Below are positions 31,199 to 36,414 of a stretch of 64,000 nt of DNA, one piece after another (position 1 is the first letter of the stretch; each line of letters begins with the position of its first letter). The notes below the pieces were generated by a model. The model was given only the letters and a program-made list of their open reading frames with translations. It was not told where the DNA came from and did not search any database. Both the position numbers and the translations under genes were made by a program. This DNA comes from Kazachstania africana CBS 2517 (taxonomy: Eukaryota > Ascomycota > Saccharomycetes > Saccharomycetales > Saccharomycetaceae): contig NC_018944.1 of assembly GCF_000304475.1 (NCBI RefSeq), positions 496,001-560,000 on the forward strand. Reading direction: 5' to 3'.

Positions 31199-32155
31199 TT
31201 ACAATTTTTTGTACGAGATCTTATTATCTGGTGTCACTATAACCTGCAATCTACCTCTACCATGATTCAAAGTTCCAGAGTTCACACTGACACCTTTAGA
31301 GGCATTAATTTGCATGATGTTCTTTTCATACATTTTCACTTTATTTTTCAATCTTTGGTTTTCACTATTCTTGCCTAGATTCTCAGTTGAATCATTTGAA
31401 TTTATTCTTTGGACTTCTTTCAAATATTTTTGCGATATATCTCTAGGATTACTTGATTTTGGTAAAATATTTTCATCAAGTAGGACAAGATCGTTAGAAC
31501 TTACTCTTCTTTTCAATTTCTCTGATGTCAAGACTTCGTTATCCTTGAGTATTAGTTTTTCAAAAAATTTCTTCTTATCTTTAACCTTTTTTGAATCTCT
31601 AAGTTTTAATATAGAATCTGTGCTTGATTCCCTGTCTTTATGTTCTTCCGATGCAATTATACTATTGAACGTGTCGTCATTTGAAAGATCCCATTCATTA
31701 TCAGAAAATATTGAATTTGGAGAAGATCTAGAGGCATTCGAAAGAGTTGGCGACACTGGATGAAGTTCATTTTTATGTAATAGATGTTTATTCTTTACAG
31801 GCGTCGAAAGTGACTCACTAATCAATGTAATATTATCATATTCTTCGTCATCCTCTTTCGAACTGTGTTTAATATTTTTGATGTTATTTAAATAGCTTAT
31901 CACCGACTTTGATATCGTACCATCCTGCTCAGTACTCATCCAAAGAAGCTTATTTTTATTCAATAAACTAGCACTATGATTGAACAGCATACTAGATATG
32001 GACGATGCATTAGTACCTTTGTATTGACTTAACAATAACTTGAAGTATATGCATGATTGACTTAAGCTGTAGAGATCTTCGGCATTTGAATATAGGAATA
32101 TTCTTTGTAAAACAGTAATAGGCAGCTCCGTTAGGTTTTTGGCTATAAGTGCCAT
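31199..32155 (-). CDS. MFB1: Mitochondria-associated F-box protein Mfb1-like
   Basis: Mfb1 is an F-box protein on the mitochondrial surface that anchors mitochondria in the mother cell. The protein begins with an F-box (LTELPITVLQRIFLYSNAED, residues 8-27, continuing to about 50), then a serine-rich disordered region and a conserved C-terminal patch. At 318 residues it is shorter than S. cerevisiae Mfb1 (465), so much of the middle is missing. The assignment rests on the F-box and on position next to SPR28 (YDR218C-YDR219C). Confidence 0.85.
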   Translation of the reverse strand: MALIAKNLTELPITVLQRIFLYSNAEDLYSLSQSCIYFKLLLSQYKGTNASSISSMLFNHSASLLNKNKLLWMSTEQDGTISKSVISYLNNIKNIKHSSKEDDEEYDNITLISESLSTPVKNKHLLHKNELHPVSPTLSNASRSSPNSIFSDNEWDLSNDDTFNSIIASEEHKDRESSTDSILKLRDSKKVKDKKKFFEKLILKDNEVLTSEKLKRRVSSNDLVLLDENILPKSSNPRDISQKYLKEVQRINSNDSTENLGKNSENQRLKNKVKMYEKNIMQINASKGVSVNSGTLNHGRGRLQVIVTPDNKISYKKL

Positions 32156-32870
32156 GATTTATACTCTTCGGTTAAATTAAGACTGGTGTTAATGAAGGGG
32201 ACTGATGGTATGAAGTCTGAAGTAAGCACAATATAGAATTGTTTTTATTCAAGATTTACAAGATTTGATTGTCAAAATATCCCAAGTTCTGCCCTTTCAA
32301 GTTCTACCCTCGGCTTCCTTCTTTGTTATGTTTAGAAATCTTATGTGTACGATTTTCCCTTTTAGAGCAAAAATGATAACAAAAAAAATATAGCTAATGG
32401 TCACGTGCTTGAGTGATACCATTGCGACGGAAGATGGACTGGCGATGAGCAACACCCTGGGGTTCATGTTAGTTGGCCGTAACTGGATGCTGCATACCAA
32501 GGATTACTTTATATGGTGGGCCTTTGTTTGTGGGTGGTTATTTTCAAGTGGAAGGGTCTGAGGTTTTATTGCTGACTCCGAGGTGACGACAGTTTGCAAT
32601 TTTGCTGACAGGTTCTCTCTGTTTCTAAATACAAAACAGGCCCTCAAGCCTGTCTGTATACTTGGCTTCTGAGGCGGAATTGCTGTTAGTAGGGTAAATA
32701 CTGCCTTCTAAAGAGATTTTTTTACTGACTTTACGACCAAGAATCTGAGAAGTTACTGCTGGAATGGCCTGGTTCCATGAAACATATATAAACAATCAAA
32801 TATTCATGCTTGATAGTGTATAATTCTTGTTCTCTCATAAGACCACAAAAACAAACTACTATCCATAAAT
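32156..32870. other. MFB1 / metallothionein-like gene divergent promoter region
   Basis: About 715 bp between divergent genes. It holds a CACGTG near 32403, three Ace1-type copper motifs and a TATA box (listed separately). In S. cerevisiae only the dubious YDR220C lies in this interval. Confidence 0.6.
32566..32792 (+). promoter_or_regulatory. Three Ace1/Cup2-type metal-response motifs and TATA box
   Basis: Three sites on the coding strand match the copper-fist consensus HTHNNGCTGD: TTATTGCTGA (32566-32575), ATTTTGCTGA (32599-32608) and TTACTGCTGG (32753-32762). A TATATAAA box follows at 32785-32792, 79 bp before the ATG. A fourth GCTG (32692-32695) fails the consensus. The layout resembles copper-induced CUP1 promoters. 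Confidence 0.65.
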
Positions 32871-33788
32871 ATGTCAACCTGCAAGAATTCTCAAACAAAA
32901 AATGAAGCATGCAATTGTATCCAATGCACATGTAACTATCTCGCTGAAGAACTTACCAAGCTACTAATTCAAGGTTGTGCTTGTAATTGTGGTTCTTTTG
33001 AAGGACTTGCATCGGAAGAAGGATGTTGTTCGCATTCAAGATACAATCAATCCTCTGAAAAGGTTCTGAACTTGAAACACTCTGAAGACTGCAAGTGTCA
33101 AGAGACAGGGCGTACATGCACTAAATGTCATTGCCCTGACAGTAGATTCAAGGATGGTAACACTGAAAGTTGTAAGATACCCGTTACTGAAATTAAAAAA
33201 GGTGGATGCTCAAATTGTGATTGTTCTCAAATTAATATCAATAACAACTACCATTCAAATTATGACAATAGAAATGGCAAACACGTGGACTGTAACGGTT
33301 CACAATGTGAATGTGACACTAGGACCACTTCCAGATGTATTTGTTGCAGTAACCCCAAAACGAAAAAGTGCGGATGCACCGGCTGTAAGTGCTTCGATTG
33401 CAGATGTGTTCACTGTTTCAAGGGCCAATGTCACTGTTTTGATTGTAAGTGCTCCGACTGCAAATGCTCCGATTGTAAGTGCTCCGACTGCGGATGTGTT
33501 CACTGTTTCAACAGCCAATCTCGCTGTTCTGACTGCAAATGCTCCCACTGCAAGTGCTCCGATTGTAAGTGTTCCGACTGCAAATCTAGCCACTGCTCTA
33601 ATAACCAATGTCACTGTCCTGACTGCAAGTATACCCATCACTATAATACTCATTGCCGGTGTGTTGTTTGCAGATGCAGTCATTGCGAATGTTCCAGTTG
33701 CATTTGTAACGAAGAAAAACGTCCTATTCCAAGATTTAGACCTACTAACTGCAGATGTTCAAACTTTAGTTGTACAAACTATGAATGA
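32871..33788 (+). CDS. Giant metallothionein-like cysteine-rich repeat protein
   Basis: The 305-residue protein has 66 cysteines (about 22 percent), nearly all in C-x-C and C-x2-C patterns and adjoining C-C pairs, and almost no long hydrophobic segment or signal peptide. Such spacing is typical of metallothioneins, which bind Cu(I) or Zn(II)/Cd(II) in thiolate clusters in the cytosol. The N-terminal 155 residues carry spaced clusters separated by polar linkers. Residues 156-279 are a dense array with 41 cysteines, including three tandem 30-residue blocks (176-205, 206-235, 236-265) made of nested C-S-D-C-K units. Yeast Cup1 and Crs5 are only about 60-70 residues, so this is not a simple orthologue. 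The two other long frames over this region are composition shadows. The copper-motif promoter supports a metal role; the metal bound is unknown. Confidence 0.85.
   Translation: MSTCKNSQTKNEACNCIQCTCNYLAEELTKLLIQGCACNCGSFEGLASEEGCCSHSRYNQSSEKVLNLKHSEDCKCQETGRTCTKCHCPDSRFKDGNTESCKIPVTEIKKGGCSNCDCSQININNNYHSNYDNRNGKHVDCNGSQCECDTRTTSRCICCSNPKTKKCGCTGCKCFDCRCVHCFKGQCHCFDCKCSDCKCSDCKCSDCGCVHCFNSQSRCSDCKCSHCKCSDCKCSDCKSSHCSNNQCHCPDCKYTHHYNTHCRCVVCRCSHCECSSCICNEEKRPIPRFRPTNCRCSNFSCTNYE
33396..33665 (+). repeat. Three tandem 90-bp coding repeats with nested 15-bp units
   Basis: Each 90-bp block encodes a D-C-x-C-V/S-H-C opening, a short polar loop with Q-x-C and then several C-S-D-C-K units. Blocks align at exact 30-residue spacing (for example His-Cys at residues 181-182, 211-212 and 241-242). 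Within blocks the 15-bp unit (variants of TGCTCCGACTGCAAA) recurs almost identically at the DNA level, so expansion is recent or maintained by conversion. Confidence 0.85.
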
Positions 33789-34389: not shown

Positions 34390-36414
34390 ATGAAGGCTAT
34401 CACATTGCTGCTTACTGCATCCTCGGTGTCTACTTTAGGGCTTGTGGAAGCTACCTTACCAAAAGTAAGAGGCGTCCCACCAAGTAAGCAACATTTGTAT
34501 GAGCCAAGCTCCAATGGAACGTGGAAATGCTTGAATAGTCAAGATATAGTTCTCAATTATAGTCAGATCAATGATGGCATATGTGACTGTCCTGATGGTT
34601 CAGATGAACCAGGTACTGCCGCATGTGTAGATACCTTAGAGTCACAATTATTTTACTGTGAAAATGAAGGTTTCATTCCTCGATTTATTCGAGGTACATT
34701 TGTAGATGATGGAATATGTGACTGTTGCGATTGCTCTGATGAAAGTAATTTACATGGTAATACCTGTGGAACCCTTCGTGAGGTCTTTGAAGACATCGTA
34801 CAAACAGAATTAAAGAAATTTGAAGAAGGAAAAGTAGAATTAATTCAATTAATGAAAACCTATGGTATTGACATTTCTGATAAAGAAAATGATGAATTGG
34901 TAAGCAAAAGAAACCGTGATGTTGAAATGGCAGTCTTGAAAGATGATATTGACCATTTAAAACGTGAACAACTCAGAAATGAGATGATTTTAGATCAAGA
35001 AAGGGAAAATCTTCTAAATAGGTTGCAAATGGAAAATCCAATACTTTATCAATTTGAAAATATTGATATGACATTAATTTTAAATACGTTGAAAGAATAC
35101 TACCACAAAATTGCGAAAATCAGTGATGCGTACACTGATTTGACAGAAGTATTAATTGCGTTATCTAAAACTTATACTAGAAGTCTAAATGATAAAGTTG
35201 TGAATGAGAACGTCAAAATTTTTGAACAAAAATTCTATTCTCGTGAATTAGAAAAGATTGCAGCAAATGGTAAAGTTGATCTGGAGCAATTAGATCAATT
35301 GATAGTTTATTTTACTGATGAGTTACCTAATATATTTTGGGAGCGTAAATTTGACAAGCCAGCTGAATATGTCCAAAATAAGGTAAAATTTGTTTACGCA
35401 TTAATTGATGGTAAAGTAGTTTATACGGAGACTCTGAAGAATCTGATTAATATATTTTCCAAGAATATGGAAGATATCAGTGAAAATTATAATGTGAATT
35501 TCCAAGACAGTGGTGTTATTTCCGCCGTCAATGCTTACAGAGAATATTCATCAAAATATGACGCCACATTGAAAAGGGCAGCACTAGAGTTACCATCCAA
35601 TTTCGTACAAGAGATGGAGAAATTGGTGAATTTGGTTGAGTCTCATGCGGAAACCTTAATCCCTGAAAAGACAGAAGAGGAAGTAGGTCAATTCAATAAG
35701 ATTCTTGGTTACGTCAATAAATTTGGATCAACAAAGTTAGAATCATTGAGGGAACAGACCAACGCTCACAGGATGGAGGTAGAAAACTTACAAAAGCAGA
35801 TTGATTCAAAAATGAATAAATATGATCAATTATTGAATGCTTCAAAAGAGGAAAACATCGGTGGAACTTCACAAGAGGATATGATTCCCTTAGAACAAAT
35901 TAATGAATTATTGGAAAAGATGGGTGATTCATTCAAAATTGGACAATTATTGGATAATTACAGATATGAAATTTCATTGAATACCCAAGACAATAATGGT
36001 GACATATATCAGAGAGAAGATAGGACGAATGGAAACAGTGTCAAGATTGGTCATTTGAAAAGTGTATCGTTTGACAAAAGATACAATCTGCATAAATTTA
36101 TAGACGACGTAAGGTTAAAATATTCTGGAGACAACATTATTCAGCATTTAACCAGTGATGAAGCCACACTTGGTGACCACAGTTACTTATTTGGTAACTT
36201 ACAAGATATCAATAATGGCCTTGTTTTCGAATATGTTAATGGAGATAAATGCTGGAATGGACCATACAGAAGTGCAAAAGTGTCTATTAAATGTGCAAAA
36301 GATTTTGAAATTTTTAACGTGCATGAAATTACAAAATGCAACTATTTAATCGATGCCGCTGGTCCTATCGGCTGTAATGTCAATTTCAAATACATGCCTC
36401 ATGAAACACGTTAA
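34390..36414 (+). CDS. GTB1: Glucosidase II beta subunit
   Basis: Gtb1 is the non-catalytic ER subunit of glucosidase II, which trims glucose from N-glycans and helps glycoprotein quality control. The start chosen is the ATG before KAITLLLTASSVST, which begins a signal peptide (674-residue precursor; S. cerevisiae 702); an in-frame upstream ATG would bury the signal. Two cysteine-rich GII-beta repeats contain CDCPDGSDEP and CDCCDCSDES. A long coiled-coil middle follows, and a C-terminal MRH-type domain contains YVNGDKCWNGPYRSAKV and conserved cysteines. No HDEL-type signal is visible at the C-terminus. It corresponds to S. cerevisiae YDR221W. Confidence 0.96.
   Translation: MKAITLLLTASSVSTLGLVEATLPKVRGVPPSKQHLYEPSSNGTWKCLNSQDIVLNYSQINDGICDCPDGSDEPGTAACVDTLESQLFYCENEGFIPRFIRGTFVDDGICDCCDCSDESNLHGNTCGTLREVFEDIVQTELKKFEEGKVELIQLMKTYGIDISDKENDELVSKRNRDVEMAVLKDDIDHLKREQLRNEMILDQERENLLNRLQMENPILYQFENIDMTLILNTLKEYYHKIAKISDAYTDLTEVLIALSKTYTRSLNDKVVNENVKIFEQKFYSRELEKIAANGKVDLEQLDQLIVYFTDELPNIFWERKFDKPAEYVQNKVKFVYALIDGKVVYTETLKNLINIFSKNMEDISENYNVNFQDSGVISAVNAYREYSSKYDATLKRAALELPSNFVQEMEKLVNLVESHAETLIPEKTEEEVGQFNKILGYVNKFGSTKLESLREQTNAHRMEVENLQKQIDSKMNKYDQLLNASKEENIGGTSQEDMIPLEQINELLEKMGDSFKIGQLLDNYRYEISLNTQDNNGDIYQREDRTNGNSVKIGHLKSVSFDKRYNLHKFIDDVRLKYSGDNIIQHLTSDEATLGDHSYLFGNLQDINNGLVFEYVNGDKCWNGPYRSAKVSIKCAKDFEIFNVHEITKCNYLIDAAGPIGCNVNFKYMPHETR

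Follow-up and report, generated by a model that had tools for sequence, protein, structure and literature searches.

We focus here on an open frame with 66 cysteine codons in the genome of Kazachstania africana (11,130,140 bases in 12 contigs) and ask whether it is a gene, what kind of protein it would encode and which metal, if any, that protein would hold. The frame lies in a window of 64,000 bases, which is the whole stretch of DNA analysed (bases 496001-560000 of contig 5, itself 925,516 bases long), and occupies part of the 2,234 bases that separate the divergent frames of MFB1 and GTB1 (Table 1). The Pfam matches around it are Rad9, septin, F-box-like (below the cut-off), the glucosidase II beta subunit, which is GTB1, and Svf1-like. 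RAD9-SPR28-MFB1-GTB1 is presumably the gene order of S. cerevisiae, and it is this order that gives the F-box-like gene its name. The placement between MFB1 and GTB1 proposed in the initial annotation is thus borne out by the flanking Pfam matches, in the sense of an F-box gene on one side and GTB1 on the other. Among the best 120 of 351 matches to the window's GTB1, the nearest named ones share 45% identity with it and come from Maudiozyma saulgeensis and M. barnettii; one further sequence among the matches listed scores slightly above them.

Table 1. Features of the cysteine-rich locus, in window positions
Feature	Position	Strand	Remarks
F-box-like protein, MFB1 by gene order	31199..32155	-	divergent neighbour; F-box-like E 5.6e-4, below Pfam's cut-off
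Ace1/Cup2-like site TTATTGCTGA	32566..32575	+	-305 from ATG; HTHNNGCTGD match
Ace1/Cup2-like site ATTTTGCTGA	32599..32608	+	-272; HTHNNGCTGD match
Ace1/Cup2-like site TTACTGCTGG	32753..32762	+	-118; HTHNNGCTGD match
TATA-box-like TATATAAA	32785..32792	+	-86
Metallothionein-like ORF	32871..33788	+	305 codons and stop, 66 Cys; translation of a single open frame
Residues 1-165	32871..33365	+	25 Cys, forming discrete clusters (CxCxxCxC, CxCxC, CICC)
Overlapping open frame, 257 codons	33154..33927	+	next frame; considered the less probable gene of the two
Residues 166-305	33366..33785	+	41 Cys, mostly CxCxx pentapeptides
90-bp tandem repeat	33384..33628	+	2.7 copies, 81% matches; contains 15-bp units encoding CKCSD
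GTB1, glucosidase II beta subunit	34390..36414	+	downstream neighbour; Pfam and protein-database matches

The frame had initially been described as intact, with 305 residues of which about 22% are cysteine, and translation confirms this description, the cysteine share being 21.6%. The spacing of these cysteines departs from what composition would give. CxC occurs 26 times, whereas 5000 shuffles of the protein had a mean of 14.0 and a maximum of 25, and Cx4C occurs 36 times against a shuffle mean of 13.8 and again a maximum of 25; adjacent cysteines occur twice, against a mean of 14.1. CxC and a five-residue cysteine period are thus present beyond composition, while the excess of CxxC is weak, its 20 occurrences lying about two standard deviations above the shuffles (mean 14.0, sd 2.9, maximum 24). 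C-x-C and C-x2-C spacing had been said to run throughout the protein, which is too strong in view of the unequal division of the cysteines between the two parts (Table 1). The C-terminal half is a degenerate CxCxx array inside a 90-bp higher unit, and residues 217 and 239 of the array are serine where the repeat unit has cysteine. A lone match to the zinc-knuckle pattern CX2CX4HX4C, at residue 249, is read as chance in a stretch rich in cysteine and histidine. Metallothioneins as a class have very high cysteine content in CxC and CxxC, few aromatic residues, small size, metal-thiolate binding and induction by metals. The protein shares the cysteine content and spacing (CxxC weakly), and its aromatic residues are few rather than absent, with no Trp, 8 Phe and 7 Tyr among 305. 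It is not small, at 305 residues, and other large proteins have been accepted as metallothioneins.

The promoter, initially called sensible, proved to be so, with the TATA-box-like sequence and an A at -3 of the ATG. Within 305 bp upstream there are three putative sites, all on the strand of the gene, that match HTHNNGCTGD, which we take to be the Ace1/Cup2 site consensus; several such sites would be expected of a member of the Ace1/Cup2 regulon. Of 104 distinct upstream regions of 320 bases, the motif is absent from 83, occurs once in 19 and twice in one, and is found three times in the target alone, one or two sites thus being found in 20 of the 103 others; this rank is not blind, as the sites were spotted by eye before they were counted, and the regions, which precede ORFs of at least 150 codons (not all of them known genes), were drawn from the window and from loci chosen for cysteine patterns or copper proteins, which are not random places. 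At least three sites occurred in 27 of 5000 first-order Markov sequences. With the looser WNNNGCTGD, which was applied to Cuf1 of fission yeast according to the available part of the source (PMC1929147), the target has four sites, and three of the 104 regions have at least four, one of them five. Single Mac1-like, stress-element and Haa1-like matches are also found in the 715 bases upstream of the gene. In S. cerevisiae, as stated in the accessible part of one account, Cup1 and Crs5 are copper-inducible through Ace1/Cup2 sites, CUP1 having three such elements and CRS5 one, and SOD1 is an Ace1 target (PMC13369610). The upstream region of SOD1 in the present genome has one HTHNNGCTGD site, on the opposite strand, as do many regions; since one-site regions are common, SOD1 cannot be used as a positive control.

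The genome encodes three copper-fist proteins, among them a regulator of the Cup2 kind. From their sequences we take them to be Cup2 (L022, 264 residues, compared with the S. cerevisiae sequence), Haa1 (L023) and Mac1 (L024). Haa1 and Cup2 are separate in post-duplication yeasts, according to the part of the source available (PMC5234253). The Cup2-like gene has one HTHNNGCTGD site upstream; this TTATTGCTGA site, the same as the distal site of the cysteine-rich gene, lies 126 bases before the ATG of the Cup2-like gene, and autoregulation of that gene through the site is possible.

Does the protein have relatives? No match was found in Pfam and NCBIfam at E values up to 10, nor to the yeast metallothionein profile PF11403 at the same limit, and the best solved-structure match is weak (E 0.077). 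The protein-database search could find only proteins of about 168-534 residues that share exact five-residue words, relatives shorter than about 168 residues being out of its reach; it returned only the protein itself among 56 candidates for the whole sequence, and itself and one other (P0002) among 129 candidates for the repeat region. P0002, with 360 residues, reads as bacterial and was rejected as a relative, as the match (E 2.4e-3) is short and of low complexity and the likeness is one of CKC(S/T)D repeats. By eye, P0002 has DCKCSDCKCTDCKC behind a signal-peptide-like start; it looks secreted and opens with CKCSDCKCTDCKC repeats, in which the motif has likely arisen independently. The protein database also contains GTB1 from at least six species among the best 120 of 351 matches, namely M. 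saulgeensis, M. barnettii and M. exigua and a further three, listed as Huiozyma naganishii, Monosporozyma unispora and Arxiozyma heterogenica, all of which we take to be former Kazachstania; a long, close orthologue in these related species thus had a chance to appear. The suggestion that the gene is specific to this lineage fits these searches but is unproven, given their size range. PF11403 has no match in the genome and equally none in all 14 control genomes, and genes like CUP1, CRS5 and MT-II gave no genome matches, in sequence searches lacking a positive control. Among the titles listed in the open-licence literature, none is on this gene or on a Kazachstania africana metallothionein.

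Other cysteine-rich frames were sought in the genome by pattern. CxCxxCxC with any spacers has 544 matches compared with 209 in the backwards control (the first 20 were examined), and with spacers free of Gly, Arg, Cys and Trp it has 31 compared with 13, six of them in the cysteine-rich gene itself (30 of the 31 loci were examined); CxCx3CxC has 58 compared with 35 (the first 20 and four further places were examined). The loci examined, which cover part of the genome's cysteine-rich frames, contain eight distinct ORFs of at least 25 codons with at least eight cysteines and at least 10% cysteine. One is the cysteine-rich gene. Another (L004:1351-1557; contig 1, about 194,330-194,536) has 68 residues and nine cysteines and is a CYSTM protein, matching the CYSTM stress-tolerance module PF12734 at E 3.1e-8. 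A third, in L074, is a frame of CQCNSK units with 24 cysteines, which was rejected, as a second frame on that strand reads through it, open for 711 codons, and runs off the locus. An 18-bp tandem repeat there (L074:1366-1776; contig 4, about 538,865-539,275) reads MPMQQQ in the long frame and CQCNSK in the other, and we judge the latter, which mimics a metallothionein, to be an out-of-frame echo. The remaining five (L056, two in L058, L059 and L075) were dropped by eye, L075 alone having been compared with longer frames.

The reading of the locus has to be weighed against the view that the frame is fortuitous or a recent repeat expansion that makes no working protein, or that the overlapping 257-codon frame is the gene; we consider this unlikely, although the codon statistics and the lack of a homologue in the protein searches both lean towards it. 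The codon score of the cysteine frame, -0.125, is lower than that of each of the 29 genes in the window (range 0.104 to 0.315) and also lower than the median of 58 wrong-frame controls (-0.050), whereas the overlapping frame, at 0.069, falls in the gap between the highest of these controls (0.064) and the lowest gene (0.104). On synonymous scores both frames, with -0.028 for the cysteine frame and -0.029 for the overlapping one, come just under the gene range (from -0.021). The extreme composition can explain the low score of the cysteine frame, yet the score gives the frame no support, and the case for it thus rests on its openness, the 15-bp arrays and the promoter. The frame stays open for 306 codons, and its 66 TG_ codons are without exception TGT or TGC, never TGA or TGG. 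In 5000 first-order Markov sequences with the dinucleotide content of the gene, none of the three forward frames was ever open for at least 300 codons (maximum 213), and the most cysteine codons in any frame was 38, compared with 66 in the gene. It also counts against the overlapping frame that its ATG sits 283 bases inside the cysteine frame. The repeats provide third-position evidence that is mixed, the counts with DNA-defined bounds pointing both ways: when neighbouring units are compared in the two 15-bp arrays, as delimited by the repeat finder, third positions account for 12 of 14 differences, but comparison of the complete 90-bp repeat gives 6, 11 and 11 differences at positions 1, 2 and 3, with no third-position bias (11 of 28). 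In six CKCS[DH] units, four of five variable columns are third positions (P 0.017), a result favoured by the choice of the units by protein sequence, and a tally over pairs in the repeats, which overlap and are dependent, puts 465 of 882 differences at third positions. Codon differences at six repeat offsets are synonymous in 46 of 78 cases in the cysteine frame, compared with 7 of 75 in the overlapping frame, the offsets having been selected by cysteine-frame identity and overlap and so leaning towards that frame.

If the cysteine frame is the gene, its product could instead be a metallothionein that mainly holds Zn(II) or Cd(II) and not Cu(I), or a general thiol or redox buffer. Cysteine-rich composition alone cannot tell metals apart, and the 15 histidines and the stretches containing CxxC would suit such a protein; the putative promoter sites, however, are of the copper-regulator type, and Yap1 and heat-shock patterns have no match in the 715 bases upstream, so we regard this as improbable. 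A disulfide-linked structural protein, for instance of the spore wall or of the keratin-associated type, would share the high cysteine content and the repeats. By hydropathy, however, the protein has neither a hydrophobic leader nor a membrane stretch, its highest 19-residue Kyte-Doolittle mean being 0.77, which to this extent upholds the initial claim that it lacks a signal peptide. CxC spacing, moreover, does not favour disulfides, and we thus consider a structural role very unlikely indeed.

In our preferred reading, the gene probably encodes a cytosolic, copper-inducible, high-capacity Cu(I)-thionein with a flexible chain. High-capacity metal buffering, as originally proposed, remains the best reading, with a function inferred from sequence, and the promoter sites add copper as the probable metal. 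We infer that the frame is translated, that copper induces it and that its product binds Cu(I). The regulator of the Cup2/Ace1 type, activated by excess copper, would bind the three GCTG sites and switch the gene on, and Cu(I) would then be enclosed in polynuclear Cu-thiolate clusters by the product's 66 thiols, which in the C-terminal array number about two in every five residues. The chain may have been lengthened by tandem duplication of a 15-bp unit, encoding CxCxx, inside the 90-bp unit, and a single gene may supply the capacity that S. cerevisiae draws from many CUP1 copies. CUP1 is confined to Saccharomyces species in the available part of one report (PMC12767201), and another detoxifier is thus to be expected here. 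It is possible, and we propose it only tentatively, that the gene encodes the lineage's main copper metallothionein under Cup2 control, was born in the MFB1-GTB1 space without descent from Cup1, Crs5 or MT-II, grew by 15-bp CxCxx duplication until its product exceeded all other fungal metallothioneins in length and Cu(I) capacity, and is a one-gene alternative to CUP1 amplification. If confirmed, the Cu(I)-thionein would be a very large one in a yeast family with short metallothioneins, would reveal a second route to high copper capacity, by enlarging the protein and not by adding gene copies, and would be a clear case of a new metal-binding protein arising from short repeats.

The metallothioneins of this yeast family have, to our knowledge, about 50-70 residues. 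The anatomy of the cysteine-rich protein is metallothionein-like, but its alignments with Cup1, Crs5 and MT-II point to no known metallothionein family as its ancestor. S. cerevisiae Cup1 and Crs5 (61 and 69 residues) are cysteine-rich too, yet align with it no better than shuffles do. Nakaseomyces glabratus MT-II, at 52 residues about one-sixth as long, has similar cysteine spacing and an alignment score of 120 that none of 500 full shuffles reached; 130 of 500 shuffles with the cysteines kept did reach it, however, and the likeness is thus limited to the cysteines. In general make-up, Tremella mesenterica TmMT and Cryptococcus CnMT1 and CnMT2 are likewise long, repeat-built and cysteine-rich. 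According to the accessible part of its description, TmMT is found mainly as Cu41-Cu42 species when cultures have low aeration, gives copper tolerance back to yeast that lacks metallothioneins, and has a ten-exon gene and a seven-cysteine box (CXCX3CSCPPGXCXCAXCP), in contrast to the CxCxx pentapeptide and the one open frame here (PMC4755600). Scaling from TmMT, we estimate that the 66 cysteines might hold about 48 Cu(I), or roughly 45-50. Metallothioneins of 319 residues in a snail and 399 in Oikopleura are large through tandem domains, in the portions of the sources available; these are animal proteins, and the likeness noted here is one of size. The initial statement that large fungal metallothioneins have under 200 residues is out of date, TmMT having 257 residues and 57 cysteines (the sum of the stated parts) in the portion of the source available (PMC4755600). 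With 305 residues and 66 cysteines, the candidate metallothionein described here is longer than this, the fungal record that we found in print.
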